A stretch of 64,000 nucleotides of DNA from Massilia sp. Se16.2.3 (GTDB lineage Bacteria; Pseudomonadota; Gammaproteobacteria; Burkholderiales; Burkholderiaceae_D), in contig NZ_CP050451.1 of NCBI RefSeq assembly GCF_014171595.1, forward strand, positions 1,302,001 to 1,366,000, in the 5' to 3' direction. The notes below the pieces were generated by a model. It was not told the DNA's origin. It saw only the letters and a list, made by a program, of their open reading frames with translations, and made no database searches. The position numbers and the translations under genes were made by a program. Each line of letters opens with the position of its first letter. The first letter of the stretch is position 1. Positions 3,516 through 21,646 of this stretch are shown one piece after another.

Positions 3516-5303
3516 CTACCTGCGCGGCAGCGGCTTGCCCTTGTCGATCACCTCGCGGCAATCGCCGCGCATGCGCGCATTGTCGTAGTCGGCCCAGCCA
3601 TAGCTGTCGACATAGCGTTTATGCGCCGTCAGCCGGGCGCTGGCGATGCTGCGCGTGGGGTCTTCGCCGGGATAGCGGATGTCGCCCAGGTCGACCAGCG
3701 TGTGGAATACGTTCTCGGTCGACAGGCGCGCCGCCCGGTGGGCGCGCAGTTGCGCCACCTTGGCGGGAAAGCGCGCGCCATACGCATCCGAATACCAGGC
3801 AAAGGCCGGCACATGGAACTCGTACTGGCTGTTGTGGCCATGGAAAACCTGGCGGCAGCTGCCGTCGAACAGGGTCTGCCCGTGGTCGGCCACGTACATC
3901 AGGGCCGCTGCCTTGTCCGTCTCCTTCAGGCGCCCGACCAGCTGGGCCAGGAACCAGTCGGTGTACAGGACCGAATTGTCGTAGCTGTTGTTCAGTTGCG
4001 GCTCGATCGCGTCGTCGGTCAGCACCGGCTTGTCCACCCCCAGCAGCGACGGCTTCCACTGGTCGAAACGGGCCGGATAGCGGTGCGCGTAGTTCCAGTG
4101 GCTGCCGATGGTGTGCAGCACGATCAGCTTTTTCGGCGCCGGGTCGGCCAGGGCGCGGCTAAACGGGCCCAGCAGCACCTCGTCGAGGCTCGGCTTCGTG
4201 TGCAGGCTGCCCAGGTTGAAAAATTCGGTCGCGTCGGCTTCCCTGGCGAACACCGAGACCGGCGTATCGAACTTGCCGAACGAGGTCTGGTTCGACAGCC
4301 AGTACGTCTTGTAGCCGGCCTCCTTGAAGGCGCTGAGGAAGGATTTTTCGCTGAAGCCGTCTTTCAGGCTCTGCATCGCCGGTTTGCGCGAAATGATGAC
4401 CGGCACCGACAGGCGCGTTGCCGACACCGAGGTGATCAGGTCCTGCAGGGAGACCAGGTTCGTTTCCCGTGCCAGCAGCGGATTCGTCTCACGCGCATAG
4501 CCGTTCAGGCTCCAGCGATCGAAGCGGGCCGATTCGCCCAGCACCATCACGACGACCGCCGGCGCATTGCCTGGGTCGGCCTGGACGGCGTCGAAGCGGA
4601 AGGCGGCGCTGCGGCGGTCCAGCTCGGCGAGATAGACGCGTTCCTTGTAGAAGTCCTTGGCACGCGCCACCAGGCCGAAGGGCCAGGAGCGCGCGAAAGC
4701 CTCGGCCGGGAAGGGCAGCCGGGCCCAGTGCGGCAGGGGCGGCGCGGCACCGTGCACGGACGTGGCTGCGGCGGAAGCGGCACTGCCCGCCGGGTGCGCC
4801 CTGGCCGCGACCAGGTGCACGCCGGGTCGCGCCGTCCTGGCGGCGGCACGCTCGCCTGGCGCGACGCCGTAGCGCTTTCCATACGCGAACATGGCCACGG
4901 CCAGGACCAGCAGGCCCACCACCAGCCAGCGCGAGCGGTCGTTCCAGTCGAGGTCGCGCGTCGTCCAGGCTGCGCGCCAGCTGCTGCCCCACCAGGCCAG
5001 CACGCCGACGAAGACGGTCACCAGCAGCCAGGCGCGCCCACCGAGGAATTCCATCGCCTCCATCGGGCTGGTCTCGGCCAGGATGCCCAGGTGGTGGGTG
5101 GAGATGCCCTGGCCGTAATACAGGTACAGGTAGAGCTCGACCGGGAGCGCGAGGAAGGCCGGCAGCAGCAGCGGATGGAACCAGGCCGGACGCTTGAACA
5201 CGGCCCACAGTGCCATCCAGCCGATCACGGCGATGCCGGCCAGCTGTCCCGGGCGCTCCAAAGGCAGGCCGAGCGCCAGCGGCAGGAAAGCGACCGCCGA
5301 CAA
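3516..5303 (-). CDS. Phosphoethanolamine transferase-like sulfatase-fold membrane enzyme
   Basis: An inner-membrane enzyme of the EptA/CptA/OpgE group, which moves phosphoethanolamine from phosphatidylethanolamine onto lipid A or glycans at the periplasmic face. The N-terminal third has several hydrophobic helices. The catalytic domain begins at VVVMVLGESARFDRWSLNGY, with the TNP box just after, a metal-site region IVLHTIGSHWNYAHRYP, and VADHGQTLFDG toward the C-terminus. The usual nucleophile Thr (GET) is Ser here (GES), as in some OpgE-like members. The TTG start at 5303 is only the first in-frame option. Upstream the frame continues as LLRPRNLYLLLSYLALSAVA, and a natural ATG at 5404 lies in another frame, so an indel near 5340-5352 probably hides the first helix. 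Substrate uncertain. Confidence 0.8.
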   Translation of the reverse strand: MSAVAFLPLALGLPLERPGQLAGIAVIGWMALWAVFKRPAWFHPLLLPAFLALPVELYLYLYYGQGISTHHLGILAETSPMEAMEFLGGRAWLLVTVFVGVLAWWGSSWRAAWTTRDLDWNDRSRWLVVGLLVLAVAMFAYGKRYGVAPGERAAARTARPGVHLVAARAHPAGSAASAAATSVHGAAPPLPHWARLPFPAEAFARSWPFGLVARAKDFYKERVYLAELDRRSAAFRFDAVQADPGNAPAVVVMVLGESARFDRWSLNGYARETNPLLARETNLVSLQDLITSVSATRLSVPVIISRKPAMQSLKDGFSEKSFLSAFKEAGYKTYWLSNQTSFGKFDTPVSVFAREADATEFFNLGSLHTKPSLDEVLLGPFSRALADPAPKKLIVLHTIGSHWNYAHRYPARFDQWKPSLLGVDKPVLTDDAIEPQLNNSYDNSVLYTDWFLAQLVGRLKETDKAAALMYVADHGQTLFDGSCRQVFHGHNSQYEFHVPAFAWYSDAYGARFPAKVAQLRAHRAARLSTENVFHTLVDLGDIRYPGEDPTRSIASARLTAHKRYVDSYGWADYDNARMRGDCREVIDKGKPLPRR

Positions 5304-5574
5304 GGCCAGGTAGCTCAGCAGCAGGTAGAGGTTGCGGGGGCGCAGCAGGGGGCGCGCTGCGGCAGGGGCGGGCGCGACAGGGCACGGCGCGGCGGGTTGA
5401 GCATGGAGGCAGAATAGTGGGCGACAAGAGGGGCAGCCATTATCCGGCCTTTATCACCGGAAAAGCTATTCCCTAGCTGCAAGAATTCCAACTGCATGCC
5501 CGTCAATTGTGTCATGACTACCACAGGAGCCCGCCTTTTCCTCCCCTGTAGCCACTGCTGCGACAGCAAATCGG

Positions 5575-5603
5575 TTGACCGCGTTTTGCGAGGAGTCTAT
5601 ACT
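5575..5603 (+). promoter_or_regulatory. sigma70-type promoter of the str operon (rpsL)
   Basis: TTGACC at 5575-5580 and TATACT at 5598-5603 are separated by exactly 17 bp, close to consensus. They lie about 165 bp upstream of rpsL and point into the operon. This predicts a leader of roughly 155 nt, consistent with leader-based control of ribosomal protein synthesis. Confidence 0.75.
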
Positions 5604-5713
5604 CGCGAGTTCTCGATTTATTCTGCGGGTCGTATACGCATTCACAGCCGCTCCTTCGGTGAGTGGCTTTCGGCGCCTCGGCTGTCAGACCGATACGGGA
5701 CTAGGTTTCAGTC

Positions 5714-5733
5714 CCCGGGCAAGCTTGCCCGGG
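5714..5733 (+). promoter_or_regulatory. Perfect 20-bp palindrome in the rpsL leader
   Basis: The sequence is CCCGGGCAAG followed by its exact reverse complement CTTGCCCGGG, 34 bp before the rpsL ATG. In RNA it would form a stable hairpin with the ribosome binding site just downstream. It could be an attenuator, a processing site or a leader structure. There is no U-tract after it, so simple termination is unlikely. Confidence 0.5.
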
Positions 5734-5767
5734 TTATCAACTGTAGTACTTTGTTGGATTAGGAACG

Positions 5768-6154
5768 ATGCCAACCATCAATCAACTGATTCGCAAGCCG
5801 CGCGTTGCCGCGGTTGTGAAGAGCAAGTCGCCGGCACTTGAAAACTGCCCGCAAAAGCGCGGTGTGTGCACCCGTGTGTACACCACCACGCCGAAGAAGC
5901 CAAACTCGGCACTGCGTAAAGTCGCCAAAGTGCGTCTGACCAACGGTTTCGAAGTCATTTCGTACATCGGCGGTGAAGGCCACAACCTGCAGGAACACTC
6001 GGTCGTGCTGCTGCGCGGCGGTCGTGTGAAAGACTTGCCAGGTGTGCGTTACCACATGGTCCGCGGCGCACTGGATACCCAGGGCGTGAAAGACCGTAAG
6101 CAAGCTCGCTCGAAGTACGGTGCGAAGCGCGCCAAGGCCGGCGCCAAGAAGTAA
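5768..6154 (+). CDS. rpsL: 30S ribosomal protein S12
   Basis: 128 residues, normal for betaproteobacterial S12, starting [13 protein letters not shown]12 sits at the decoding centre and affects translational accuracy. The conserved loops are intact: [19 protein letters not shown], with the streptomycin-site Lys in PKKPNS, and [12 protein letters not shown]. The basic tail ends [11 protein letters not shown]. First gene of the str operon, preceded by AGGAACG. No resistance-type change is seen at the two lysine hot spots. Confidence 0.98.
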
Positions 6155-6290
6155 TCATCTGCGGTCTCGGTCATATCGAGGTCACATATAAACGTTAAGT
6201 TGAGCCGGCCGGAAGGCCGAGTAAGTGAGTGGTCATGAGGGCCCCTCGCGAGTGCGGAACAAGCACTCAACTGAAGATAAAGGAATTGAA

Positions 6291-6761
6291 ATGCCACGTC
6301 GTCGTGAAGTACCCAAGCGCGAGATCCTGCCAGATCCAAAATTCGGCAACACGGATGTCGCCAAGTTCGTCAACGTTCTGATGCTGTCCGGCAAGAAGTC
6401 GGTCGCTGAAAACATCATCTACGGTGCGTTTGAACATATCCAGCAAAAATCGGGCAAGGACCCGCTGGAAGTGTTCGCGGCCGCGATCAACAACTGCAAG
6501 CCGATGGTCGAGGTGAAATCCCGCCGTGTCGGCGGCGCCAACTACCAGGTGCCAGTGGAAGTTCGTCCGGTCCGTCGTATGGCGCTGTCCATGCGTTGGT
6601 TGCGCGAAGCCGCAAACAAGCGCAGCGAAAAATCCATGCCACAACGCCTCGGCGGTGAACTGATGGAAGCGGCTGAAATGCGCGGTGGCGCGATGAAGCG
6701 TCGTGACGAAGTCCACCGTATGGCTGAAGCGAACAAGGCGTTCTCGCACTTCCGCTTCTAA
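6291..6761 (+). CDS. rpsG: 30S ribosomal protein S7
   Basis: 156 residues, [20 protein letters not shown] onward, the usual S7 length. S7 nucleates assembly of the 30S head by binding the 3' domain of 16S rRNA. The ATG at 6291 follows AAGGAATTGAA; earlier in-frame starts lie in the intercistronic spacer and add a non-homologous tail. In E. coli S7 represses the str operon by binding the rpsL-rpsG spacer. The 136-bp spacer here could serve the same purpose, but the site cannot be proved by reading. Confidence 0.98.
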
Positions 6762-6913: not shown

Positions 6914-9019
<2,106 letters not shown>

Positions 9020-10340: not shown

Positions 10341-10376
10341 ACAGAGGGGGCAGAATTTCGATTCTGCCCCCTCTGT
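10341..10376 (+). terminator. Strong hairpin with TTCG tetraloop after tuf
   Basis: A perfect 16-bp stem, ACAGAGGGGGCAGAAT / ATTCTGCCCCCTCTGT, closed by a TTCG tetraloop, 51 bp after the tuf stop. A clear U-tract is missing. A -10-like TATACT (10394-10399) follows just after it, suggesting the str transcript is ended or processed here and rpsJ is restarted. Confidence 0.6.
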
Positions 10377-10477
10377 TCAAGTAGGAACGGTGATATACTT
10401 CCGCTCCTTTGCAGTATGTAGCACCTGACAAATCATTGCCGGCCCCGAGCCGGTTCGCTCTTTTCTAAGGAAATCGC

Positions 10478-10795
10478 ATGTCCGCTCCAAACCAGAAAAT
10501 CCGCATCCGCCTGAAAGCGTTCGACTACAAGCTGATCGACCAGTCCGCACTGGAAATCGTCGACACCGCCAAGCGCACCGGCGCTGTGGTCAAGGGCCCG
10601 GTCCCACTGCCGACCCGCATCCAGCGTTTCGACATCCTGCGTTCCCCGCACGTCAACAAGACCTCGCGCGACCAGTTCGAAATCCGTACGCACCAGCGCC
10701 TGATGGACATCGTCGATCCTACCGACAAGACCGTTGACGCACTGATGAAGCTGGACCTGCCAGCTGGCGTCGACGTCGAAATCAAGCTGCAGTAA
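10478..10795 (+). CDS. rpsJ: 30S ribosomal protein S10
   Basis: 105 residues, starting [18 protein letters not shown] and ending [11 protein letters not shown]; conserved [20 protein letters not shown]10 is part of the 30S head and doubles as the NusE antitermination factor. Start ATG after CTAAGGAAATCGC. It is normally the first gene of the S10 operon with rplC directly behind. Here 10 kb of other genes follow before rplC, so rpsJ stands alone between two strong hairpins. Confidence 0.98.
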
Positions 10796-10837: not shown

Positions 10838-10887
10838 CATCGGGGCCGGGAAGGGCCGCCATCTGGCGAAGCTTCCCGGCCCCGATG
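10838..10887 (+). terminator. 16-bp perfect hairpin after rpsJ
   Basis: CATCGGGGCCGGGAAG (10838-10853) pairs exactly with CTTCCCGGCCCCGATG (10872-10887), leaving an 18-nt loop that can itself fold. It lies 42 bp after the rpsJ stop. No U-run follows, but the stem is strong and sits where the S10 operon is interrupted, so it probably marks the 3' end of the rpsJ transcript. Confidence 0.55.
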
Positions 10888-11034
10888 CCGTTTACGTCGC
10901 CCGTTCGTGTTCGCTGTCGACGGCCAGTGCGGGCGCCAAAACCGGCCGCAACGGTGCCTGCATATTGCCAAAATGCTATACTCTCCTGGGCTGCACAGCG
11001 GCAACCTGCCGCGCGGCCCGTCAAGGAGACGTGC

Positions 11035-11959
11035 ATGCACAGTATTGAAGCCAGCTGGCGCGAATCGGCCGCCAAGCTGAACGACACCTCCTGGGTCACC
11101 CTGTTCGGCTACGCCTACGCGGCCTCCTTCACCGTCATGCTGCTGAGCATGGCCCTGCCTGCCCAGTGGCGCGAGGCCACGAAGGGGCTTCCCCTGGTGC
11201 TGCCCCTGCTGTTCCTGGTAGCCAAGGACCTGGCCCAGATTCCCGACGTCGCCATCCGCCTGCGCACGCTGCGCGCCCAGGGGGCCAACCCGCTACGCCT
11301 GCTTGCAGCCTGCCTGCCACCCGGCGTCATCGGCATGGTGCGTCTCGACCGAGCCATCTGGCGCGGTTTCTTTTTGCTGGCTGCGCCGCCAGCCGCAGCC
11401 GGCCCGCCCAGGCGGCGTCCAGCTCGGCTTCCAGGCCCAGGGCGCGTATTCGACCGTCATCGCCATCGGCCTGTTCGCCGTCCTCGTGGAGCTGCCGCTC
11501 GACGCCGCCATCCTGCCGCTGTTCCTGAAGGATCCCGACGAGTTGCGCACTATCCATCTCCTGCTCGGCCTGGGCAGCCTGTACAGCCTCGTCTGGCTGC
11601 TGGGCGATCGCTGGCTCGTGCGTGGCAGCTGCCACGTGCTCACCGACACCCATCTCGACCTGCAGGTCGGCGCGCGCGCCAGCGCCCGCATTCCGCTGGG
11701 CGGGGTGGAGCATGCGCAACTGCTGCGCGACTCCGTCGATGCGTGGCGCAAGGCCCATCCATGCCGACTGATGGAAAGGGTCTCGATCACGCCATTCGAC
11801 AAGCCGAACCTGGTCCTGACGCTGCGCGCGGATGCCGGCTGCGCGATCGTGCACCACGGCGTGGTGCGCAGCGGAGTGCGGTATGTCTTCCTGTATCTCG
11901 ACCGGCCGCAGCAACTGATTGCGGCCCTGGATGCGCGCCAGGAACCAGGAAAAAGCTGA
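11035..11959 (+). pseudogene. Predicted membrane protein of unknown function, frameshifted near 11395-11425
   Basis: The start ATG at 11035 follows TCAAGGAGACGTGC. The first part ([20 protein letters not shown]...) has a hydrophobic helix, then [20 protein letters not shown], and ends in frame around RGFFLLAAPPAAAG. The second frame resumes with GVQLGFQAQGAYSTVIAIGLFAV, more hydrophobic segments, and a soluble C-terminal domain ending ALDARQEPGKS. One extra base in the GC-rich stretch between them would explain the split. I do not recognise a family. It is the first gene past rpsJ and lies on the plus strand, opposite the ter genes, so it is not part of their operon. Confidence 0.6.
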
Positions 11960-12084
11960 CCGGTTTCCAAGGACAGCGCGCCCGCGACGACAGCTCCCGC
12001 GCAAGGAGAACGGGGCCAAGCTGGGCGCGCGCAGGAAGCGAGCACGTTTTTATTGCGAGGAAGGAAAGCTGACGGACAGCCGGC

Positions 12085-12492
12085 CTACTGCAAATGGTCC
12101 AGCACCGTCGAGAATGCCGGCAGCGCCATCGCCATCGCTTTCTGCTCGAACGCTGGCGCCGTCAGCGGACCGGTCACCGTCTCGCGAACGGCTCCCTGCG
12201 GCGACCGCGTCGCCGTATCGACGATAAAATAGCTCGTCGTGCCGCGATTGCCTTCTGGATGCTGTTTCGCTACCAGGTAACGCCCGTCCCAGCCGACCGC
12301 GAACACCGTGCTGTCGACCAGCACATCCCAACTACCTTCGCCCTCGTCGCGGGCCAGCGAGACGTTTTCCGGCGTATCGATCCAGAGCAATGCATAGGGG
12401 CCGCCGCGCCATTCGACCCCGGAATCGAACAGACTGCAGGAACTCAGGAAGCCTGCCATGACAAGCAGCAGAGCGCGGCGCCAGGCTGTCAT
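12085..12492 (-). CDS. Small lipoprotein of unknown function
   Basis: 135 residues, starting MTAWRRALLLVMAGFLSSCS. The hydrophobic stretch followed by LSSC is a lipobox, so the mature protein is expected to be lipid-anchored at Cys19. The body (EWRGGPYALLWIDTPENVSL, WDGRYLVAKQHPEG, TTSYFIVDTATRSPQG) has beta-rich character but no family I can name. The ATG at 12492 was chosen because it is the only start giving a clean signal sequence; longer frames run into the neighbouring gene. It lies 41 bp downstream of the secreted protein gene on the same strand. Confidence 0.75.
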   Translation of the reverse strand: MTAWRRALLLVMAGFLSSCSLFDSGVEWRGGPYALLWIDTPENVSLARDEGEGSWDVLVDSTVFAVGWDGRYLVAKQHPEGNRGTTSYFIVDTATRSPQGAVRETVTGPLTAPAFEQKAMAMALPAFSTVLDHLQ

Positions 12493-12533
12493 TGCCTCTC
12501 CTTTATGCGAAAGTGTCCGCCGGCCGCTTCTTC

Positions 12534-13070
12534 TTACTTTTCCCGACTGATCGTCTGCAGCAGCTTGAACGCTTCGCGTTCGATGGACGGCTCCGCAGCC
12601 GCCAGTTCCTTGCTTGCCAGGACATAGGCGGCGCGCTTGCGCTCCTTCTTCTCTTCCGGCGCTACCGATGGACGCGCGTATGGATCGACGAACTGGGCAG
12701 AGTGGTTGTAGCGCTTGTAAATGACCTGCTTGCCGTAGGGCGTGCCGTAGAAGCGCGTCATCTCGATGGCGGTATCCGCCGAAATCGCCTGTACCAGCTG
12801 CGGCGCCAGGCGCCGGTAGACCTCTGTCGCCGGCAGTTTGTCGAGCTTGGCGAACACGGCCTGGCGCTGCTCCTGGCTCGGGAAGCGGCTGCGGGCCGCG
12901 ACGCCGCGCAGCACTTTTTCGACCTGCATCGCGCCCAGCAGATCCTGCACGGCCTGCACGTGGGCGGGACCGGTAACGGCCGCCTGTGCGGCGGTCGGCA
13001 CGGAAGCGGCAAACGCAGGCGCCGCGGCAAGCAGCGACAGACCGAATACGGCGTGGACTACACACTTCAT
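12534..13070 (-). CDS. Secreted DUF2059-like protein
   Basis: 178 residues with a signal peptide, MKCVVHAVFGLSLLAAAPAF, cleaved near AFA-AS. The helical body includes VQDLLGAMQVEKVLRGVAAR and EMTRFYGTPYGKQVIYKRYN, matching the FYxxpxGk pattern of DUF2059 periplasmic proteins. No catalytic motif is visible. The start at 13070 is set by the signal peptide. Probably co-transcribed with the downstream lipoprotein; function unknown. Confidence 0.75.
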   Translation of the reverse strand: MKCVVHAVFGLSLLAAAPAFAASVPTAAQAAVTGPAHVQAVQDLLGAMQVEKVLRGVAARSRFPSQEQRQAVFAKLDKLPATEVYRRLAPQLVQAISADTAIEMTRFYGTPYGKQVIYKRYNHSAQFVDPYARPSVAPEEKKERKRAAYVLASKELAAAEPSIEREAFKLLQTISREK

Positions 13071-13273
13071 GGGTTCTTCTTTCAGGTGGGGTTGTCGTCG
13101 GCTTCCCGGCACGGATGCTCGAGTGCTCGACCGTAGCGATCATACCCTGCCGCCTCTCGACGAAAATGCGCGGAATTTCACATCTTTTGAATCCACCTCG
13201 TCGATATGGAAGAGGAAGAAAGGCAAGCGACGCGGCGCCGTTTCCCGGCGCGCAGGGCATGCCGCCCGTCCCC

Positions 13274-14530
13274 TCAATCCTTGCTGCCGGTCTTCCAGCG
13301 CAGCCCGAACTGGAAGCGCTGGTCCATCAATTCGTGCGCGCTGGTCCGGCCCTGCTGTTCGAAATATTCGGCCAGCTTCGTCACCTGCAGGCGTCCGCCC
13401 TGGTTCTCGATCATCGCGATCGCACACATCATCTGGCTGCCGCCACCGTCCAGGCGTACCTCGACCGGTGCCTGGTTCGGTACGGCGATGGTGACCACGC
13501 CATCGGTCGCTCCCCAGTTCGGCACACCCTCGTAGATGAAGGAAAAGATCAGCGCGCGGCGGATGCCGTCGAAGCGCTCGCCGTTGATGTACAGGTTTTC
13601 GCCATTGCTCGACGATCCCGTGCGGTCGTCGGCGTCGAGCTTGATATAGGGGACGTTGTCGTAGTCGCCCCAGGCATTGCCGAGCGCCTGCACCAGGCCC
13701 TTGCGGCCATCGGCCAGTTCGAACATGCAGCCCAGATCCAGGTCGATGCCACCTGAACGCCGGCGTCCGCCCGGGGCGCCACCCAGCGCGCCGCTCAGCC
13801 GGCCGAGGAAGCCCGTCTTCTCGGGCTGCGTGCTCGGGCTGACGGCGCCGGACTGGTTCCAGTTCAGGTTGACGTGGATCCGTCCGAAGCCGCCGCCGGC
13901 GCGCTTCTCGAGCGAGACCTTGTCGCCGCGCTTTTCGAGCGTGACTTTCGACAGCGAGACTTTAGGCTGGACAGAAGAAACCGGCGCGGGTGCCGGCTGT
14001 GCCGGCGTGGAAGACGGCGGTGCCGCCTCGCTTCCACCGAAATGCTTCAGCAGCGCCGACAGCCCGCCATTGAATCCCTGGCCAACCGCGCCGAAGCGCC
14101 ATTGCCCGTCGCGCCGGTACAGCTCGGCCACGATCACCGCCTTTTCGTCGCCGAAGTCCGCCCCAGACCACGGAAAGCGCAGCGCGCTGCCGACGGTGAG
14201 GCTGCTGGCACCGAGCGCGCGCATGGTTTGCGCGCCGTCGATGGCGGCCACGAACACCAGCTTGGCGATGGTCGAAGGCAGGGCGTCGAGTTTCAGGTCG
14301 AAGCGGGCCTTGCTGCCAGCCAGTTGCAGGCGCACGGCGTCGCCGGGGCTGGCGAGCTGGTTGTAGAAGACCATGTAGCGCTCGTCCGAGAGCTTGTCGG
14401 CGCCATCGAGCCCGAAGCAGGAGACGTCGAGCGTCATGCCTGGCGCCGCGATATCGATTTCGACCGGGAAGGAGGCGCCCAGGCCCAGGTCGGCCAGCTT
14501 GCCCTTCTGGCCGCGCGAGAAGATGTTCAT
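13274..14530 (-). CDS. TerD-TerA two-domain tellurium/stress resistance protein
   Basis: 418 residues. Residues 1 to about 168 form a TerD domain (DVSCFGLDGADKLSDERYMV, VIVAELYRRDGQWRFGAVGQ, GFNGGLSALLKHFGG). A proline-rich linker (SSTPAQPAPAPVSSVQP) and two TLEKR/SLEKR repeats follow. The C-terminal half matches TerA: HVNLNWNQ, GGIDLDLGCMFELADGRKGL, YIKLDADDRTG, YEGVPNWGATDGVVT. TerD domains bind calcium and belong to membrane-associated stress complexes. It is the last gene of the minus-strand ter operon and overlaps the lyase gene by an ATGA junction. The fusion of both halves in one chain is clear; the exact role is not known. Confidence 0.88.
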   Translation of the reverse strand: MNIFSRGQKGKLADLGLGASFPVEIDIAAPGMTLDVSCFGLDGADKLSDERYMVFYNQLASPGDAVRLQLAGSKARFDLKLDALPSTIAKLVFVAAIDGAQTMRALGASSLTVGSALRFPWSGADFGDEKAVIVAELYRRDGQWRFGAVGQGFNGGLSALLKHFGGSEAAPPSSTPAQPAPAPVSSVQPKVSLSKVTLEKRGDKVSLEKRAGGGFGRIHVNLNWNQSGAVSPSTQPEKTGFLGRLSGALGGAPGGRRRSGGIDLDLGCMFELADGRKGLVQALGNAWGDYDNVPYIKLDADDRTGSSSNGENLYINGERFDGIRRALIFSFIYEGVPNWGATDGVVTIAVPNQAPVEVRLDGGGSQMMCAIAMIENQGGRLQVTKLAEYFEQQGRTSAHELMDQRFQFGLRWKTGSKD

Positions 14531-15426
14531 GTGCTTTCCCTTTCAATGGAAGATGCCTCGGCGCCGAAGCGGCGCGACTGCGCGACAAGGCGCTCCGCCC
14601 AGGCGCGGTGGGTAGCCACCTCGCACATCGATTCGTGCAGCTTGAAGACGGCCGGGCTGTTCTCGTCGAGGATGGCATGGGCCGCCGCCAGGTCCTGCGG
14701 CTTCACCTTGTAATGCTGTTCGATCGGTGCGATCTGGCTCGGGTGAATGGCCGTCTTGCCGACCATGCCGTAGGCGATATCTTCCAGCACTTCCTGGTCG
14801 AGCAGGGCCGGTGCATCGAGGTGCTCGAACACGGGCGCGGTCAGCATGAAGCCCCAGGGGCGGAAGATTGTCACCAGGCGTGCGATCACGGGACCCAGAG
14901 GCGTGCGATAAATCGTCATGCCGCGCGGACGGCGCAGTCCCAGCAGGGCCAGCAGATCGTTGCCGCCGATGCGCAGCGCCAGGATGCGGTTGCGCACGCC
15001 CGGGGCCTGCAGCAGCTCGCGGAAGGCTTCCATCTCGCGCTCGCTGAACACCTCGGCCGTTTCCAGCGTCGGCATCAAGAGGTGGCGCGTGTCGCGCACC
15101 TGGCGGTAATACGATTCGAAATTCTGGCGCGTCGCTTTCGGGATCACGAAGCCGGCCAGCTTGTGCACGCCCGGCATGGCCAGCACCCGCGCCAGCACCT
15201 CGGGATTACGCACCCGCACGAAGCGCTGCGCATGCACATCGGGGTGCATGTTCTGCAGCACCACCGACAGGTTGAACAGCGCCCAGCTCAGGTCGCGGTC
15301 TGCCACCGCGTCTTCGGTACAGAAGATCAGCGAGCGCGCCTGTGGCAGCTTCTCGCCGTTGGCCACCTGCAGCAGGTCTTTGTGGTTGGCTGGCACGTAC
15401 AGCGACGCGCCCATCGATTCATGCAT
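14527..15426 (-). CDS. HpcH/HpaI/CitE-like C-C bond lyase of the ter operon
   Basis: 299 residues of TIM-barrel aldolase/citrate-lyase type, matching the C-C bond lyase family (PF15617) that accompanies ter genes. The N-terminus SLYVPANHKDLLQVANGEKL resembles CitE. Metal-site candidates are FCTEDAVAD, RIGGNDLLALLG and KTAIHPSQIAPIEQHY. The ATG at 15426 has AGGAG 8 nt upstream and overlaps the StiP gene stop by 8 bp; a GTG at 15435 is the alternative. It presumably cleaves or forms a C-C bond in making the proposed ter metabolite. Family confident, reaction inferred. Confidence 0.85.
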   Translation of the reverse strand: MHESMGASLYVPANHKDLLQVANGEKLPQARSLIFCTEDAVADRDLSWALFNLSVVLQNMHPDVHAQRFVRVRNPEVLARVLAMPGVHKLAGFVIPKATRQNFESYYRQVRDTRHLLMPTLETAEVFSEREMEAFRELLQAPGVRNRILALRIGGNDLLALLGLRRPRGMTIYRTPLGPVIARLVTIFRPWGFMLTAPVFEHLDAPALLDQEVLEDIAYGMVGKTAIHPSQIAPIEQHYKVKPQDLAAAHAILDENSPAVFKLHESMCEVATHRAWAERLVAQSRRFGAEASSIEREST

Positions 15427-16504
15427 CCGAGGCACTCCTGATCAGGGAAACAGCTTCATACGGCAGCGCCGGGTCGATCTCGACCGGTACCGCCTTTTCT
15501 TCGGCCAGCAGGCGCAGGTGCGCCGTCGCCGCGCCCTGCGCCTGGCGCAGCAGCAGCAGGCGCGGCACGCGGCGCAGCAGCACGCGGGTGGCTTCGCCGA
15601 TGCCCGGCTTGACGAGGTTGACGTCGCCGATGGCATGGCGCGCCATGGCGCCGGCAATGTAGGCGTGCGAGCGCGCGGCGGCCGCGCGGGTATCGATCGC
15701 TTCCACCTGGCCCAGCGACGGCGCCTGCGCGAGCGCGAGTTTCACCAGCAGGTCGACGAATGCGCGCGAGCGGTCCTGCGGCGCGAACGCCTCGTAGAGC
15801 ACGCAGCCGTGGAAGTCGGCCGGACCGATCGCATCGCTCAGCACCGAGCGGCTGACCAGGCCCGACACCGTCGCGTTCAGGATGCTCGAGGGGATCAGGT
15901 AGTCGTCGCAGGAGGCGGCGACGCTTGCCGCCCCGGCCAGGTCCGACAGCACGTACAGGCCGGCGTCGAGCCCCACGCCGTGTTCACGGTTGAAGCGCGC
16001 GATCGAGGCTGCCAGCTCGCGTGCGATCACGCCCTTGCCGGTCCAGCCGTCCACAAACACGATCGATTCGGGCGCGTGGCCCTGGGCCGGGATGTGGCGC
16101 AGGGCGTTCGCGTCGATGCCGCGGTCGCGCACGATCGAGACCGAATAGTGGGTGCTGGCGCGCTTGAAAACGGGGCCCAGCAGGCGTTGCAGCACCACGC
16201 CGACGGGCGTGCCGCCGCGTGCCAGCGATACCAGCGTCACCGGCCCGCTGCGGCGTGCCGCGATCAGGCTCGCCAGGCGCAGGCAGTCCAGTGCCATGCG
16301 CTCGCCATTGTCGCGGCAGGCCTGGTCGAACAAGGCCAGGTAGCGCTGCGACGGCGGCCGTTCGGGAGTCAGCATTTCGCTGTAGTGGCGGCGGCCGGAC
16401 TGGATCAACGCCTCCTTTTCGCCGATATCGACGAAATCGGCCAGCACCAGGGGCGTCAGGAGGAAGCGCACGTCCCCGCTCGCATAGCTGCCCGAAAAAC
16501 TCAC
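15419..16504 (-). CDS. StiP family protein: PRTase_1 domain with C-terminal PELOTA-like part
   Basis: 361 residues. The first two thirds are a phosphoribosyltransferase fold: SLARGGTPVGVVLQRLLG is the loop often seen in PRTases, and SIVFVDGWTGKGVIARELA is the PRPP-binding motif. The last third (AAARSHAYIAGAMARHAIGD to RLLAEEKAVPVEID) matches the small PELOTA-type RNA-binding module attached to this family. Some databases call it cysteine protease StiP, but the PRPP motif argues for nucleotide chemistry. The GTG start overlaps the HAD stop (GTGA). Second of two PRTases in the operon. Confidence 0.85.
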   Translation of the reverse strand: MSFSGSYASGDVRFLLTPLVLADFVDIGEKEALIQSGRRHYSEMLTPERPPSQRYLALFDQACRDNGERMALDCLRLASLIAARRSGPVTLVSLARGGTPVGVVLQRLLGPVFKRASTHYSVSIVRDRGIDANALRHIPAQGHAPESIVFVDGWTGKGVIARELAASIARFNREHGVGLDAGLYVLSDLAGAASVAASCDDYLIPSSILNATVSGLVSRSVLSDAIGPADFHGCVLYEAFAPQDRSRAFVDLLVKLALAQAPSLGQVEAIDTRAAAARSHAYIAGAMARHAIGDVNLVKPGIGEATRVLLRRVPRLLLLRQAQGAATAHLRLLAEEKAVPVEIDPALPYEAVSLIRSASDA

Positions 16505-17253
16505 AGGGCCTCCAGCGTCAGTCTGGAGAGCTGGGTGCCACGCGGGACGATCGCATAGTCGCAGTCGGCCATGAAGCGCGCATCCGAGCGGCTATCGCCC
16601 ATGCCGAAGGTGACGATCTCGCCGTGCTCGCGGCGCAGGCGCTCCGTCACGTGGGCCACCGCATGCGCCTTGTCCAGGCTGCGCGGCAGGATGGCCAGGT
16701 TGTTGCCGTTGCGGTGCACGCAGTAGCCGGCATGCGCATCGAGCCAGGGCTGTACGACCTCGCGCTCGATGCGCGCCAGCGTGTCGTGGTCCTTGTCCGG
16801 ATCCTTGAGCACCACGAAAACGGCGTGCCCGCGTCTTCCACCAGGCGCGCGCGGCCACGGTAGCCGCAGTCCACGGCCCAGGCGTCGACGTGGGCGGCCA
16901 GCCCCTGCAGAACCGGGCAGGGCGGTCGTCATCTGGCCGTGCATTTGCGCCTGCCATTCGCGGTCGATGGCGCCGTCCGGCAGCAGGATGACGCCGCCGA
17001 AATTCAGGATGACGTAGCTGGAAAAGCCCAGGTCGACGCGGCGGAACGCGTCCAGGCTGCGCGCCGTGGTCGGGATCACGGTCGTGCCTTCGCTGGCAAA
17101 CGCAAAAAAGGCGCGCTGCGCCGGCGTGGTGTACGAGCAGATGCTGCCATCGCTGTAATAGGCGGCCGGCTCGAGCTCCGCGCGGCCGGCGCATTTCTCG
17201 AGCGTCTGGAACAGGGTATCGTCCAGGTCAGCAAACAGGAACTTCTTCAACAT
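16501..17253 (-). CDS. HAD-superfamily phosphatase of the ter operon, with an internal out-of-frame patch
   Basis: About 250 residues, starting MLKKFLFADLDDTLFQTLEK. HAD motif I is DLDDT, motif II the Thr in TTARSLDAFRR, and motif IV GMGDSRSDARF. Between about 16829 and 16916 the reading frame gives an alien arginine-rich patch, while another frame reads VLQGLAAHVDAWAVDCGYRG and fits. Two compensating single-base indels explain this: an extra base near 16911-16917 and a missing one near 16824-16833. The N-terminus overlaps the PRTase_2 gene by 26 bp. Proposed role: dephosphorylation of a pathway intermediate. Confidence 0.82.
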   Translation of the reverse strand: MLKKFLFADLDDTLFQTLEKCAGRAELEPAAYYSDGSICSYTTPAQRAFFAFASEGTTVIPTTARSLDAFRRVDLGFSSYVILNFGGVILLPDGAIDREWQAQMHGQMTTALPGSAGAGRPRRRLGRGLRLPWPRAPGGRRGHAVFVVLKDPDKDHDTLARIEREVVQPWLDAHAGYCVHRNGNNLAILPRSLDKAHAVAHVTERLRREHGEIVTFGMGDSRSDARFMADCDYAIVPRGTQLSRLTLEAL

Positions 17254-18424
17254 CGTCTTCCAGGTGATAGTGGAACAGGCGCGCGCCGAGCTGGCGCGCC
17301 AGCGCATGCAGGGCGTCGTTCGGAGCTGTCTCGTGGCAGAGCAGCACATGCTGGTACTGGCCTGGCGCCACGTTGTACAGGTAGTTGGCAACGCCTTCGC
17401 CGTAGTTGTCGGGGAAGCGCAAGGCGTGGCTGACAGCGCCCCAGGTGAGGATGGGCGAGCGCGTGGTCGATTGCACCACGACGTCGACGCCATGGCGCTC
17501 CAGCGCCGCGCCCAGCAGCGTGGACGGGTGCATGAATTCGCCGGTGCCCAGCACCAGCACTTTCTCGCCAGGTGCGAACCCTGCGGCCAGGCGCTCTGCC
17601 AGCGCTTCGGGCGTACGCAGCGCGCGCGCCATCCCCGTGCGGCCGAAACGGGTGCTGGCGCCGCGTTCGGCTTTCGCATCGTAGCGCTGGGCCGGCGCCG
17701 CGTCGACCGGCAGGGTGCCAGGGGTGAAGCGGTAGGCGCCGCTAATGAGCGCGCCGAGGGTGGTGGGCAGGCCGAAGCGAGCGCTCAAGCCCGCGTTGGC
17801 CGCCTGGCCCATGAAATCGGTGATCACGGCCAGGTGCACGTGCTCGATGCCGGGATTGAGGCGCCGGCAGGCCTGCGTCAGGTTCAGGAAGGTGTTGCCG
17901 GTGCTGGCTTCGTCATCGACCAGCACGATGCTGCGCGCCCGGTGCAGCAGCGCCTGTTCGGCTTCTCCCTGCGGCAGGTGCAGGAACTGGCGCGGCGCGT
18001 GGCTGTGCGCCTCCTCGAATTCGAGCAGCGGGCCGCTACCGACGCGGTAGCGTGTGGTCTGCAGGAACAGGGCTTCGCGGCCCGGGTTGGCGCGCAGCCA
18101 GGCTTCGAACACGCCCTGGCCGAGGCCCACCGCGGTTTCCGCCATGGCGATGAAGAGCACCGGAGCGTCGGCCGCATTGTCAGTCACGGGAACGCCGGTA
18201 GCCAGGCGTTCGTGCACGGCCAGCATGTCGCGCGGGCGCACCGGCCAGTGCTTGCCCAGCACCTTGCTCAGGAACAGAAAACCGCGCTTGGCATTCGCGC
18301 GCGCCGCAAAGCCGAGCAGCGCGTCGAGCTCGTGCGCGCCCTCGTGCAGCGTGAGCTCGAGCAGGCCGGTCGGCAGTTCGGCGCTGCGCCCGATGGACAA
18401 GCCGTCGTCGCTGCGCGCGTTCAT
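17228..18424 (-). CDS. PRTase_2-TRSP phosphoribosyltransferase of the ter operon
   Basis: 398 residues. The N-terminal PRTase domain carries SIVLVDDEASTGNTFLNLTQ, a textbook PRPP-binding motif. FIAMAETAVGLGQGVFEAWL may be the base-recognition side. The C-terminal TRSP domain contains KVLVLGTGEFMHPSTLLGAA and TRSPILTWG. The ATG at 18424 overlaps the ATP-grasp stop by ATGA. The TRSP domain is essentially confined to ter-linked PRTases (Pfam PF12500), so the assignment is strong. It should attach or remove ribose-phosphate in a nucleoside-like product; the base is unknown. Confidence 0.88.
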   Translation of the reverse strand: MNARSDDGLSIGRSAELPTGLLELTLHEGAHELDALLGFAARANAKRGFLFLSKVLGKHWPVRPRDMLAVHERLATGVPVTDNAADAPVLFIAMAETAVGLGQGVFEAWLRANPGREALFLQTTRYRVGSGPLLEFEEAHSHAPRQFLHLPQGEAEQALLHRARSIVLVDDEASTGNTFLNLTQACRRLNPGIEHVHLAVITDFMGQAANAGLSARFGLPTTLGALISGAYRFTPGTLPVDAAPAQRYDAKAERGASTRFGRTGMARALRTPEALAERLAAGFAPGEKVLVLGTGEFMHPSTLLGAALERHGVDVVVQSTTRSPILTWGAVSHALRFPDNYGEGVANYLYNVAPGQYQHVLLCHETAPNDALHALARQLGARLFHYHLEDDVEEVPVC

Positions 18425-19439
18425 GCCAGCTCCACGGCCTGCGCCATTTCGGCAACGCGGATGCCGTTGCGTACGGCGGGCACCGCCAGTCCCTCGAACC
18501 CGTCGGCGCAGCCTTTGATGGCCAGCCAGGGCAGGTTGGGCCCGGCCACGCAGGCCATGCCGATGCCGCCCGACATGCGGGGGTTGATTTCCAGCAGACG
18601 GGGCGGCCGCCGCCTTCACGGAACTGGACATTGAACAGGCCGTTCAGTCCATAGGTGGCGGCCAGGCTGGCAGTCGCCTCGAGGATGTCGGCGCGCTGGT
18701 CGATGCGCTGGCCGGCGCCGGCGGTGCCTGACTTGCGGCGCACCACGGCGGCAACCAGGCGGCCGGCGTCGCCCACGCAATCGACGCTGTATTCGCGCCC
18801 GTCCAGGTATTCCATCAGCAGCATGCTGCGGAAGTTGCCCATGTTCGCCAGGCCGCGGCGGAAGTCGGCCAGGCTGACGTGGTATTCGGCGCCAGCCATC
18901 AGGATCTCGGCGCTGCTGCGCTCTTCGTCGAGCACGGCAAAGCCCAGGCCGTAGATCGAATGCGCCGGTTTCACGCACAGGCGCGCATGGCGGCGGCGCA
19001 GCGCGTCATGGGCTTCCTCGAAAGCGGCCGCGTTCTCGAAGTGGCGGAACTCGGCCACCGGTGCGACCGGCAGATCGGTCTCGGCGTAGAAGCGCGCCTT
19101 GTCGTGGATGAGCTGCAACGCCGCCTCCGAGGCCACGTTCAGCATGCGCGTGCCGATCGCGTCGAAGCGCGCCTGGGCGCCGGCCAGCACCGTGGCCTCG
19201 CGTCCTGGCACGAAGATGTCGACCTGCTGCGCGCGGCAAAAGTCGAGGCACCAGTCGATGTACTGCGCTGGCGTGAGGCCGGTCGGTTCGGGATGGAAGG
19301 CGTCGGCCAGCCGGGCGCCGGCGGAATGCGGGTTCGGATGGCTGTGCAGGAGGTGGAAACGCCCGCTTGAATCTGCCTGGCGGATCAGGGAGAGGGCAGT
19401 GTGGACGGAGGAAAAACCGCGGTTGAACCAGACACGCAT
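18421..19439 (-). pseudogene. ATP-grasp enzyme of the ter operon (ATPgrasp_Ter), frameshifted near 18599-18613
   Basis: The N-terminal frame reads MRVWFNRGFSSVHTALSLIR to NGLFNVQFREGGG. It includes the nucleotide-binding Lys in RLCVKPAHSIYGLGFAVL, the central MLLMEYLDGREYSVDCVGDA, and the metal-site start. The rest, LLEINPRMSGGIGMACVAGP and on to EMAQAVELA, is in a second frame, ending in TGA at 18421-18423 that overlaps the next ATG. E, N and R of EINPR are the usual Mg-ATP ligands, so the whole enzyme is present apart from one base in a GGGGCGG stretch. It likely ligates an amino acid or similar group. Probably intact in the organism. Confidence 0.82.
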
Positions 19440-19514
19440 GAAGAATCGTTCGCTAGCAGGAAGAGCAGGCCGCGCCCCCGGACAGGCGGCGGCGCGGTAT
19501 GGGGGAAGGGTGCG

Positions 19515-20090
19515 TCAGACGTTGACGCCGAACGAGCGTGCCAGCGGACCGAGGCCGCCGTTGTAGCCCTGGCCGACGGCGCGGAATTTCCAGTCGCCGC
19601 CTGCGCGATACAGTTCGCCGAAGATCATTGCCGTCTCGGTCGAGCTGTCCTCGGACAGGTCGTAGCGGGCGATTTCGCCGTTGCCGTTGGCATTGACGCA
19701 GCGGATGAAGGCCTTGCTGACCATGCCGAAGCTCTGGCGGCGCGAGTCGGCTTCGTGGATGGTCACGCAGAAGGAGATCTTGTCGATGTCGGCCGGCACG
19801 CGCGTCAGGTCGACGGTGACGGTTTCGTCGTCGCCTTCGCCCTGGCCGGTGGTGTTGTCGCCGTTGTGGACGACGGAGCCGTCGCTGGACTTCAGGTTGT
19901 TATAGAAGATGAAGTCGGCGTCGCCACGAACCTTGCCGTCGGCCTTGAGCATGAAGGCACTGCCGTCGAGGTCGAAGGCGGCGCCGTCGGTCGAGCGCGG
20001 ATCCCAGCCCAGGCCGATGATGACCTTGGTGAGGTTCGGCGCTTCCTTGCTCAGGTTGACGTTGCCGCCCTTTTGCAGACTGATTGCCAT
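19515..20090 (-). CDS. terD: TerD family protein
   Basis: 191 residues, a full-length canonical TerD/Ter[61 protein letters not shown] and [20 protein letters not shown]. The conserved acidic residues ([19 protein letters not shown]) form the two calcium sites known in this family. The ATG follows AAAGGAGCTGTA. It is the first gene of the operon, 75 bp before the ATP-grasp gene, and probably carries the operon promoter upstream. TerC, TerB and TelA are not in the window. Confidence 0.93.
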
Positions 20091-20260
20091 TACAGCTCCT
20101 TTCGTGATTGTCGCGGGTTGTCGGTGGACTCGTTGTCGCGCGGCCCCTGGAGCGGCCGCGCGGTCGCTGCCGTGAATATAGCGCTAATTGACGAATATTA
20201 CACATCGGGGCTTACGGAAGACTTAGGCGGGGGGCGGGAGGGGGGAACGCATGGGTCCAT

Positions 20261-20562
20261 GGGGCTGTTGCCTGTGCTGGCATGGGCATGCATGGTCCGC
20301 GTGGGCTCGGAGAGCCCACTCTACGAGACTCAGGCGGGGCTGCCCATGGAAGGGAGGCATGGGTAGGCGGGGCTGTTGCCTGTGCTGTTATCGGGATGCA
20401 TGATCCGCGTGGGCTCGGAGAGCCCACCCTACGGGACGCGCCAGGGGCTCCGGTCGCGAAACCCGATTTTTGCGGCCGGCAGTCAGCGGCCTCATCCGTA
20501 GGGTGGGCACCCTGTGCCCACGCGGACGAAGCCCACCCACAGCAGGGCAGGCAACAGCCCCA
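20261..20562. repeat. Cluster of three composite REP-like elements upstream of terD
   Basis: The 545-bp gap between terD and the tRNA gene holds two direct copies (20261-20325 and 20369-20433) and one inverted copy (20496-20562). Each has GGGGCTGTTGCCTGTGC at one end and a CCGCGTGGGC...GCCCACCCTACG hairpin at the other. No gene is supported here. The arrangement matches the pair at 3271-3483 and resembles bacterial BIMEs. Confidence 0.78.
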
Positions 20563-20596
20563 CCGACATCCGCGCACGCCTTTCAACACTCAGCTA

Positions 20597-20625
20597 TTGC
20601 AAACCACGGCAACCCTTGGCATAAT
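20597..20625 (+). promoter_or_regulatory. Promoter of the tRNA-Val gene
   Basis: TTGCAA (20597-20602), 17-bp spacer, CATAAT (20620-20625), ending 10 bp before the first base of the tRNA. Spacing is ideal and the position fits initiation at or just before the tRNA 5' end. Confidence 0.65.
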
Positions 20626-20635
20626 GCGGCTCCCC

Positions 20636-20712
20636 GGGCGGTTAGTTCAGTTGGTTAGAATACTTGGTCGACATCCAAGGGGTCGCAGGTTCGAATCCTG
20701 CACCGCCCACCA
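20636..20712 (+). tRNA. tRNA-Val (anticodon GAC)
   Basis: A 77-nt gene that folds into a full cloverleaf: acceptor GGGCGGT/ACCGCCC, D stem GTTC/GAAT, anticodon stem CTTGG/CCAAG, variable region GGGTC, T stem GCAGG/CCTGC, discriminator A and encoded CCA. The anticodon loop is TCGACAT, giving GAC at 34-36 and hence valine; A73 also suits valine. Position 33 is C, not the near-universal U. The body (GTTCAG...GAATAC) resembles bacterial tRNA-Asp. It lies between the ter block and rplC. Confidence 0.92.
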
Positions 20713-20867: not shown

Positions 20868-20896
20868 TTGCGTCAAGCCCTTTTGCGCGCTATACT
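20868..20896 (+). promoter_or_regulatory. Promoter of the rplC-rpsQ operon
   Basis: TTGCGT (20868-20873), 17-bp spacer, TATACT (20891-20896), about 95 bp before rplC. Because rpsJ is 10 kb away and on the far side of terminator-like hairpins, the remainder of the S10 operon needs its own promoter, and this is the best candidate. Confidence 0.7.
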
Positions 20897-20989
20897 AGCC
20901 GGCTTCGGTATGGACTCGTCGTTGCAGAGTCCGTACGTTTTTAGTAGTTCAACTACCCCCGCCCAATCGTAGGTGGGAATGGAGAAAAA

Positions 20990-21646
20990 ATGAGCTTGGG
21001 CCTTCTCGGTCGCAAGGTTGGCATGATGCGCATCTTCACGGATGACGGGGATTCGATCCCAGTTACCGTGCTCGACGTGTCGAACAACCGTGTCGCACAA
21101 ATCAAAACTCCTGAAACTGACGGCTACGCTGCAGTCCAGGTCGCATTCGGTCAACGTCGCGCTTCCCGCGTGACCAAGGCAGTTGCGGGTCACCACGCAA
21201 AAGCAGGCGTCGAAGCTGGCACCATGCTGCGCGAATTCCGCGTTGACGCTGCCAAGGCAGCTGAACTGAAAACTGGCGACGCAGTCAATGTCTCGCTGTT
21301 CGAAGTCGGCCAGAAAATCGACGTGCAAGGCACCTCGATCGGTAAGGGCTACGCCGGTACCATCAAGCGTCACAACTTCGCATCGGGCCGCCAAACCCAC
21401 GGTAACTCGCGTTCGCACAACGTTCCAGGCTCCATCGGTATGGCGCAGGATCCGGGCCGCGTGTTCCCTGGTAAGCGCATGACCGGTCACATGGGCGACG
21501 TCACTGTCACCACCCAGAACCTGGAAATCGCCCGTATCGACGCCGAGCGTCAATTGCTGCTGGTAAAAGGTGCCGTTCCTGGCGCCAAGAACGGTCAAGT
21601 GATCGTCAAGCCGGCTGTCAAAGTCAAAGCCAAGAAAGGAGCTTAA
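20990..21646 (+). CDS. rplC: 50S ribosomal protein L3
   Basis: 218 residues, [20 protein letters not shown] to KVKAKKGA. An early assembly protein near the peptidyl transferase centre. The central extension [20 protein letters not shown], with the Gln that PrmB methylates in other bacteria (MAQDPGRVF), is conserved. Start ATG after GGAATGGAGAAAAA. First gene after the accessory block and tRNA. Confidence 0.97.

Follow-up and report, generated by a model that had tools for sequence, protein, structure and literature searches.

The genes rpsJ and rplC, which code for the ribosomal proteins (r-proteins) S10 and L3, are a textbook pair of neighbours, and in E. coli the L4-regulated leader of the S10 operon is located upstream of rpsJ. 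Here we describe a locus at which the pair has come apart, in a stretch of 64,000 nucleotides (nt) from Massilia sp. Se16.2.3 (contig NZ_CP050451.1, positions 1,302,001 to 1,366,000 of the forward strand; "the window"). Comparison with related genomes makes it likely that this rpsJ-rplC gap is an old, clade-wide landing site for genes, situated at a boundary between transcription units that was already there, and that its cargo has been swapped since, rather than being a recent island.

Small insertions between the str and S10 operons have been described as relaxing selection for synteny (Brandis 2021, PMC8046335). In the cases treated there, bfd-bfr and ilv-leu have entered the space between str and S10, and the operons can then drift apart; here, too, genes have entered a space that probably separates transcription units. 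However, the break in that work precedes S10 and lies between operons, whereas here it is found one gene further in, after rpsJ. Also unlike the earlier cases, the Massilia joint is marked by a promoter-like site and a leader of rplC, both of which occur in unsplit relatives as well. The main text of Brandis 2021 makes no mention of Betaproteobacteria, Burkholderia, Neisseria or rpsJ.

A second body of work describes hotspots of horizontal gene transfer in 80 species, without recognizable mobile elements and with recombination at the flanking core genes (Oliveira 2017, PMC5635113). Like these, the Massilia gap is one interval between core genes that has a high turnover, and no mobility gene was seen in the cargo scanned. 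Unlike the published hotspots, which were treated species by species, it is a single interval whose turnover extends over several genera, and it lies between two r-protein genes; moreover, recombination at the flanks has been demonstrated for the published hotspots, whereas for the gap in the Massilia clade we infer it. The rpsJ-rplC gap joins both patterns, a disconnection of operons driven by insertion and a hotspot that is not a mobile genetic element.

The third comparison concerns regulation. E. coli S10 is controlled by L4, which binds a structured 5' untranslated region (PMC10931766). In Burkholderiales, too, a structured leader stands before the genes for L3, L4, L23 and L2. It differs from the E. 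coli element in lying upstream of rplC, and no Rfam family matches it in the window at gathering score.

An old and clade-wide split

rplC and rpsJ were searched for in 195 genomes of the family. Among the matches listed, 126 genomes have both genes on one contig and strand; in four others (G113, G149, G091 and G155) the genes are on different contigs, and 65 further genomes fall outside the count. The gap measures 2,326-42,021 bp in 47 of the 126 and 136-385 bp in the remaining 79, with no intermediate size (385-2,326 bp) among them. Extra genes between ancestral neighbours, the mark of a disconnection by insertion, are found in 47 split genomes as against 79 compact ones. The split includes all assessable genomes of genus codes g1 (11), g4 (3), g6 (12), g12 (11) and g40 (10), which by their named contigs comprise Massilia, Pseudoduganella, Duganella, Rugamonas and Janthinobacterium. 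The compact genomes span 19 other genera, whose named contigs belong to Collimonas, Herbaspirillum, Undibacterium, Noviherbaspirillum, Oxalicibacterium, Burkholderia, Paraburkholderia and Pandoraea.

A tree was built with FastTree from ten concatenated genes, rplC to rplN, using 106 distinct rows (118 rows, minus the seven gene-poor rows L150, L153, L158, L161, L164, L177 and L214, and with five identical rows merged). Coded genomes take their genus names from their position among the named rows; their rows carry the genus code as label, an assumption in the case of G113 and G155. The difference between split and compact needs one change on this tree: 66 of 66 split rows form one clade with support 1.0, including four (L105, L110, L135 and L142) whose contigs end 1.4-5.3 kb 5' of rplC, short of rpsJ. 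The sister of the split clade is the compact genome G001 (217 bp), all 40 rows outside the clade are compact, and no re-closed gap is seen among the 66 split rows. On this tree, the split arose once in this family, at the base of the Massilia-Duganella-Janthinobacterium clade.

An earlier note, made from the letters of the window, had remarked that about 10 kb interrupt rpsJ and rplC, and had offered either an acquisition next to a tRNA or an old rearrangement as the cause, to be decided by the spacing in relatives. The distance from the rpsJ stop to the rplC start is 10,194 bp, with both genes on the + strand. The comparison with relatives points to the second cause: since the split is common to the whole clade, as one event on the tree, the layout is old, and a recent insertion is ruled out. 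An assembly join is ruled out as well, because the window genome (G000; 5,351,291 bp, with one rplC copy) is a single contig and 46 other genomes of the family are split.

A promoter-like site and a candidate leader RNA upstream of rplC

Split and compact genomes resemble each other in the region 5' of rplC. The TTGCGT-N17-TATACT sequence that the earlier note had called a promoter of rplC is indeed present, as a promoter-like consensus match. Among distinct upstream regions, 55 of 63 from split genomes (L177, discussed below, being counted as split) and 56 of 57 from compact ones have such a site that no more than two of its 25 shuffles match or beat. The distance from the end of the -10 to rplC has a median of 96 bp in split and 97 bp in compact genomes, and the spacing of the -10 to a following GGC is fixed (63/63 split, 53/57 compact). 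Found also in unsplit relatives, the promoter-like site of rplC is not a consequence of the insertion.

Downstream of this site come a variable hairpin, P1, and then a near-invariant hairpin, P2, which directly precedes the ribosome-binding site. P1 has a mean z of -2.1 over 110 distinct regions, 81% of which lie below -1. The P2 motif is present in 139 of 139 leaders (some genomes being represented twice). For covariation, 58 of 81 leaders that differ mutually by more than 10% were used; in these, P2 pairing holds in 100% of cells and three of its six pairs are altered on both sides, for example from C-G to U-A in Undibacterium and from C-G to A-U in Burkholderia. The covariation score and the number of cells changed on both sides were reached by none of 500 shuffles, the number of pairs changed on both sides was reached by 11 of 500, and slid controls paired in 32-50% of cells. 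rplC is preceded, then, by the conserved, covarying structure that characterizes r-protein leaders.

No Rfam family matches the rplC leader in the window at gathering score; STnc450, the only match at E up to 1 (E 0.38), was taken as chance. A search of open-access PMC titles and abstract openings, which does not cover the subscription literature, returned neither an rpsJ-rplC split in Massilia or Janthinobacterium nor an rplC leader. A model of P2 (R1), run with strict filters, so that its absences mean little, matched 35 of 250 genomes of the order at one place each, eight of these in the family itself. Among 229 genomes of the class it matched three, two of which belong to the order (one being the window's own); the third match, in G533 (E 0.009), was taken as chance, since neither rplC nor rpsJ is found there. 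Twenty of the 27 matches outside the family were retrieved; in every one of them, the match is no more than ~30 nt away from where the aligned rplC begins. One row of the survey, L177 (G663), has an rplC with a P2 leader and no rpsJ within 10 kb upstream; there is no rpsJ match in G663, which is possibly a further split or an incomplete genome.

The rplC leader is a candidate for a new leader RNA. In Burkholderiales it would correspond to the E. coli S10 element, moved by one gene. Tentatively, and as a possibility rather than an expectation, the two-hairpin leader might bind L4 (or L3) and govern the genes from rplC onwards, with rpsJ as a separate unit; such a move of the control one gene downstream could have made the rpsJ/rplC joint breakable, within a gene order that ranks among the most conserved in bacteria, and the joint would have broken at least twice.

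A second break at the same joint

Two of the 20 retrieved R1 matches, in genomes G396 and G366 of another family (f4), have no rpsJ close to rplC. In both, the contig that bears rplC also bears rpsJ on the strand of rplC, but at a distance of ~5.3 and 27.7 kb upstream, respectively, with other genes between, and the leader hairpin is kept on rplC. Three other f4 genomes are compact, with gaps of 289, 450 and 494 bp. As judged from these gene positions, the joint is broken at least twice in the order, because the two f4 genomes are split at the same junction. Both observations, that relatives without the split have the promoter-like site and leader hairpin and that another family is split at this junction, come directly from the sequences compared.

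Proposed history of the gap

On the rpsJ side, 54 of the 55 distinct split gaps have a hairpin followed by a T-run within 140 nt 3' of the gene, as against 14 of 55 shuffles; in the window, this is the hairpin with 16-nt arms that the earlier note had reported. Since rpsJ has its own 3' hairpin, plus a tuf-3' hairpin and a TATACT-like -10 upstream, it may be a one-gene unit in the window. By eye, a similar tuf-3' hairpin/-10 layout is present in some of 18 rpsJ-upstream regions. An apparent short rpsJ hairpin, followed by a TTCGYTCTTT..AAGGA-like stretch, is seen at 10438-10477 of the window and in several of the 18 Burkholderiales regions.

We propose the following history. In Burkholderiales, rplC would have its own promoter and structured leader, which would make the rpsJ/rplC joint a boundary between two transcription units. 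Because a promoter-like site and a leader hairpin are also found in unsplit Burkholderiales, the joint was probably such a boundary before it broke, and rpsJ and rplC would be transcribed separately. The common ancestor of Massilia, Pseudoduganella, Duganella, Rugamonas and Janthinobacterium would then have received an insertion of DNA 3' of rpsJ and 5' of the rplC promoter. Since both ribosomal units would have kept working, the break would have been nearly neutral, and it would not have been re-closed. Accessory modules would subsequently have been gained, lost and swapped, most simply through recombination between the conserved flanks, and the ter module of the window would be one such cargo, possibly the first.

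Several points weigh against this history. The main one is that the terminator is common in the split clade only, which counts against a full separation of the two units before the break. Of 57 compact gaps, only 17 gave a terminator-like site (6 after shuffling), the stretch searched being shorter there (up to 100 bp before rplC); with none found in the other 40, transcription in unsplit relatives may normally run on from rpsJ into rplC. The promoters and terminators considered here are consensus matches, and exchange of cargo through the flanks is presumed. A metagenome-assembled genome recorded as Duganella (L125, 206 bp) is compact, its tree position being beside Herbaspirillum lusitanum; and compact G019 (L062, 294 bp) has an rplC-upstream region closely resembling that of the split clade, yet its tree position is among the compact genera. 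Finally, the cargo counts given below are rough, because the codon-bias heuristic that called the genes also picks up some antisense shadows of ter genes, and the longest gaps (G056, G111, G148, G160 and G170) lie outside the calling.

Turnover of the cargo

The 76 gap loci surveyed (60 closed and 16 truncated, either where the 10-kb flank stops or where the contig does, with some genomes present twice) contain 519 called genes in 157 families. Of these families, 105 are confined to one locus and the widest is found in 33, a turnover of the kind seen in hotspots without mobile elements. A Pfam scan covered 60 cargo proteins: 20 that each stand for a shared family (52 such families in all), and 40 out of 54 unique proteins of at least 200 residues. 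No integrase, transposase or phage family was found among these 60, short open reading frames (ORFs) and the longest gaps being outside the scan, and no mobility gene is present among the Pfam-scanned gap genes of the window itself. Twelve of the 60 have no Pfam family at the thresholds used. The others include CreD, a response regulator, TonB receptors, Cupin_8, MscS, trehalose-phosphate synthase/phosphatase, DUF817, DUF2784, ROK and LacI regulators, transporters, glycoside hydrolases, tryptophan halogenase and a Tle3 effector; some gaps carry genes for sugar catabolism. By these family assignments, the cargo has turned over within the gap. In the gap of Pseudoduganella umbonata (L101), a Tle3-type effector of the type VI secretion system (T6SS) and a VasE-type T6SS component are encoded at 4039-6330 and 7350-8714.

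The ter module and other explanations of the gap

A ter biosynthetic module comprises TerD, ATPgrasp_Ter, PRTase_2/TRSP, StiP/PELOTA, C-C lyase and HAD proteins. In the window, TerD, ATPgrasp_Ter, PRTase_2/TRSP, StiP and C-C lyase genes stand side by side, within a block of seven genes on the opposite strand that the earlier note had read as a ter operon (Table 1). Only the location of the module is unusual; in the window genome its ATP-grasp gene reads as frame-disrupted. The TerD protein at 19515-20090 has no NCBIfam match; it is 37% identical to the module's TerD-domain gene and 82-93% identical to homologues in three relatives. A second pair of TerD genes, at G000:C1:1878266-1880167, is 77% and 46% identical to the gap TerD.

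The note had also suggested looking for the ter block at other loci in relatives. StiP is present in 41 of the 195 family genomes. In 18 of these it is inside the rpsJ-rplC gap (in G149 and G181 as judged from contig ends); all 18 belong to g1, g4 and g12, and in 18 of 18 ter runs opposite to the ribosomal genes. In the other 23 StiP was not seen in the gap: g6 (all 12; Janthinobacterium by tree placement), G125, g40 (4), g13 (3), g33 (2) and g10 (1). Four of the 23 (G009, G064, G095 and G105, three of which are in the ter tree) have no rplC match, which makes their gap not judgeable. Among the genomes sampled, those of Duganella and Janthinobacterium type have no ter in the gap.

ter may itself have made the split, being kept in the Massilia lineages and lost in the Pseudoduganella-Janthinobacterium-Duganella branch, a serious possibility that we stop short of favouring. 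Both branches of the split clade's deepest fork include genomes with ter in the gap, always in the same orientation. In a tree built from four ter proteins (rows with too few of these being left out), 20 gap copies stand apart from 13 others by one change; they fall into two well supported groups, which correspond to the organism groups g1 and g12/g4. However, the branch that unites the two is weak (67/20; present in 70% of bootstrap trees), and another tree, in which the g1 gap copies go with those of G089 and G144, is not rejected (p-AU 0.231); this leaves the founding role of ter as possible. Two separate entries of ter, moreover, take the same number of steps as one entry and one loss.

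An unlikely origin of the gap is the SNAP model, proposed for this gene cluster in PMC8046335: a segmental duplication ending in rpsJ, followed by asymmetric loss, would leave foreign neighbours between rpsJ and rplC. Genome G170 (L304) has two complete rpsJ genes (4779-5096 and 1689-2003), which are separated by ~2.8 kb, border a gap of 38.8 kb and are 98% and 97% identical to rpsJ of the window. A fragment of the 3' end of rpsJ, 26 residues long, lies ~2.3 kb from the full gene (G149:C19:4406-4483), which hints at a local duplication, and the tRNA-Val gene in the gap is a second copy. Yet a second full rpsJ is found in only one of 47 split genomes, where a later local duplication could explain it.

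It is very improbable that ter and other stress genes were placed beside the ribosomal genes because growth rate or replication-linked dosage would thereby act on them, as the earlier note had supposed for the former. The identical orientation of ter in 18 of 18 genomes would fit such a role, as would the osmotic and envelope genes of other gaps (trehalose-phosphate synthase/phosphatase, MscS, and CreD with a response regulator). However, ter is antiparallel to the ribosomal genes, the 23 StiP genomes described above were not seen to have it in the gap (four of them not judgeable), and the remaining cargo, such as TonB receptors, tryptophan halogenase and sugar catabolism genes, is unrelated. 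We infer no functional tie between ter and the ribosome genes.

The tRNA that the earlier note had placed in the gap is confirmed, but only as a second copy of tRNA-Val(GAC): a 96% identical tRNA-Val(GAC)-like copy is at G000:C1:3993272-3993348, and matches outside the gap are found in other family genomes too. In g6 and g40, tRNA-Val(GAC) outside the gap often occurs as two tandem copies ~110-170 bp apart, and there are four copies in G111 (g12). tRNA-Val is found in the gap at 23 of the 76 loci, with varying positions: within ~0.3 kb of rplC in most Massilia, adjoining rpsJ in L047 and L048, and 1.4-1.8 kb from rpsJ in L078 and L079. A tRNA-integrated island is marked by an integrase and a repeat of the tRNA 3' end: the scanned genes of the window and cargo include no integrase family, and no such repeat is present among the 20 largest of 50 direct-repeat families in the window. 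Because there is a second copy, the occurrence is partial and the positions shift, the gap tRNA-Val is taken as cargo, and a role as attachment site is ruled out. Least probable of all is thus the acquisition next to a tRNA that the note had considered, by an integrative element that entered at tRNA-Val and brought ter: although tRNA-Val does lie between ter and rplC with REP-like repeats adjoining, it is an extra copy found in only 23 of the 76 gap loci, the ter block of the window is on its 5' side and not at its 3' end, no integrase family is present in the scanned cargo, and the repeats are spread over the whole genome.

Features of the window

Table 1. Features from rpsJ to rplC in the window, with what each assignment rests on
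Feature	Position	Strand	Basis
tuf-3' hairpin (~10341-10378) and TATACT-like -10 (10394-10399), ahead of rpsJ	10341..10399	+	read from sequence
rpsJ (S10)	10478..10795	+	sequence search
terminator-like hairpin 3' of rpsJ, 16-nt arms 10838-10853 and 10872-10887	10838..10887	+	
membrane-protein gene, frame-disrupted near 11373 relative to homologues	11035..11959	+	alignment in two frames
small ORF, lipoprotein-like only by the label of the earlier note	12085..12492	-	no Pfam or NCBIfam match
secreted-looking protein, family not assigned	12534..13070	-	sub-threshold NCBIfam match only, E 0.0094
TerD-domain protein (TerA-like)	13274..14530	-	PF02342 E 3.7e-29
C-C bond lyase of ter module	14527..15435	-	PF15617 E 1e-92
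StiP + PELOTA_1	15419..16504	-	PF11202 E 8.9e-96, PF15608 E 2e-28
HAD-like phosphatase (weak)	16501..17253	-	PF08282 E 3.8e-4, slightly under cut-off; start from translation
PRTase_2 + TRSP	17228..18424	-	PF15609 E 6.1e-62, PF12500 E 9.7e-22; start from homologue alignment
ATPgrasp_Ter, frame-disrupted near 18600	18427..19439	-	PF15632 E 1e-23 (partial); two frames relative to homologues
TerD	19515..20090	-	similarity only
REP-like palindromes	20244..20567		repeat search, genome-wide pattern matches
tRNA-Val(GAC), second copy	20636..20712	+	
promoter-like site of rplC: TTGCGT 20868-20873, 17-nt spacer, TATACT 20891-20896	20868..20896	+	
rplC leader hairpin P1	20908..20936	+	mean z -2.1 (110 distinct regions)
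rplC leader hairpin P2, loop CAATCGYA	20958..20977	+	conservation, covariation, model search
rplC (L3)	20990..21646	+	sequence search

Other parts of the earlier description of the gap fared unevenly. The membrane-protein gene is there and aligns to its homologues in two frames; neither piece matches Pfam. For this break and for that in the ATP-grasp gene, real decay and assembly indels are indistinguishable. A DUF2059-like label for the secreted-looking protein finds no support in Pfam or NCBIfam. Repeats are present in the gap as described, but they are dispersed repetitive extragenic palindromic (REP)-like sequences and not a local feature: GTGGGCTCGGAGAGCCCAC and its variants (up to 3 mismatches) have 73 forward and 63 reverse matches in the window genome, the two sets of places overlapping since the pattern is palindromic, and a control has 0. 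With copies dispersed over the whole genome, the repeats are ruled out as the ends of an island.

Significance

By living with the pair split across several genera, and with unrelated cargo in between, the clade offers a natural experiment on the reasons for the conservation of ribosomal gene order, and it suggests that selection keeps shared transcription units, not neighbourhood itself. The covarying rplC leader is a concrete candidate for a new r-protein control element in Burkholderiales. In Massilia, Duganella and Janthinobacterium, the rpsJ-rplC gap may also represent a defined place in the chromosome that is tolerant of insertions.

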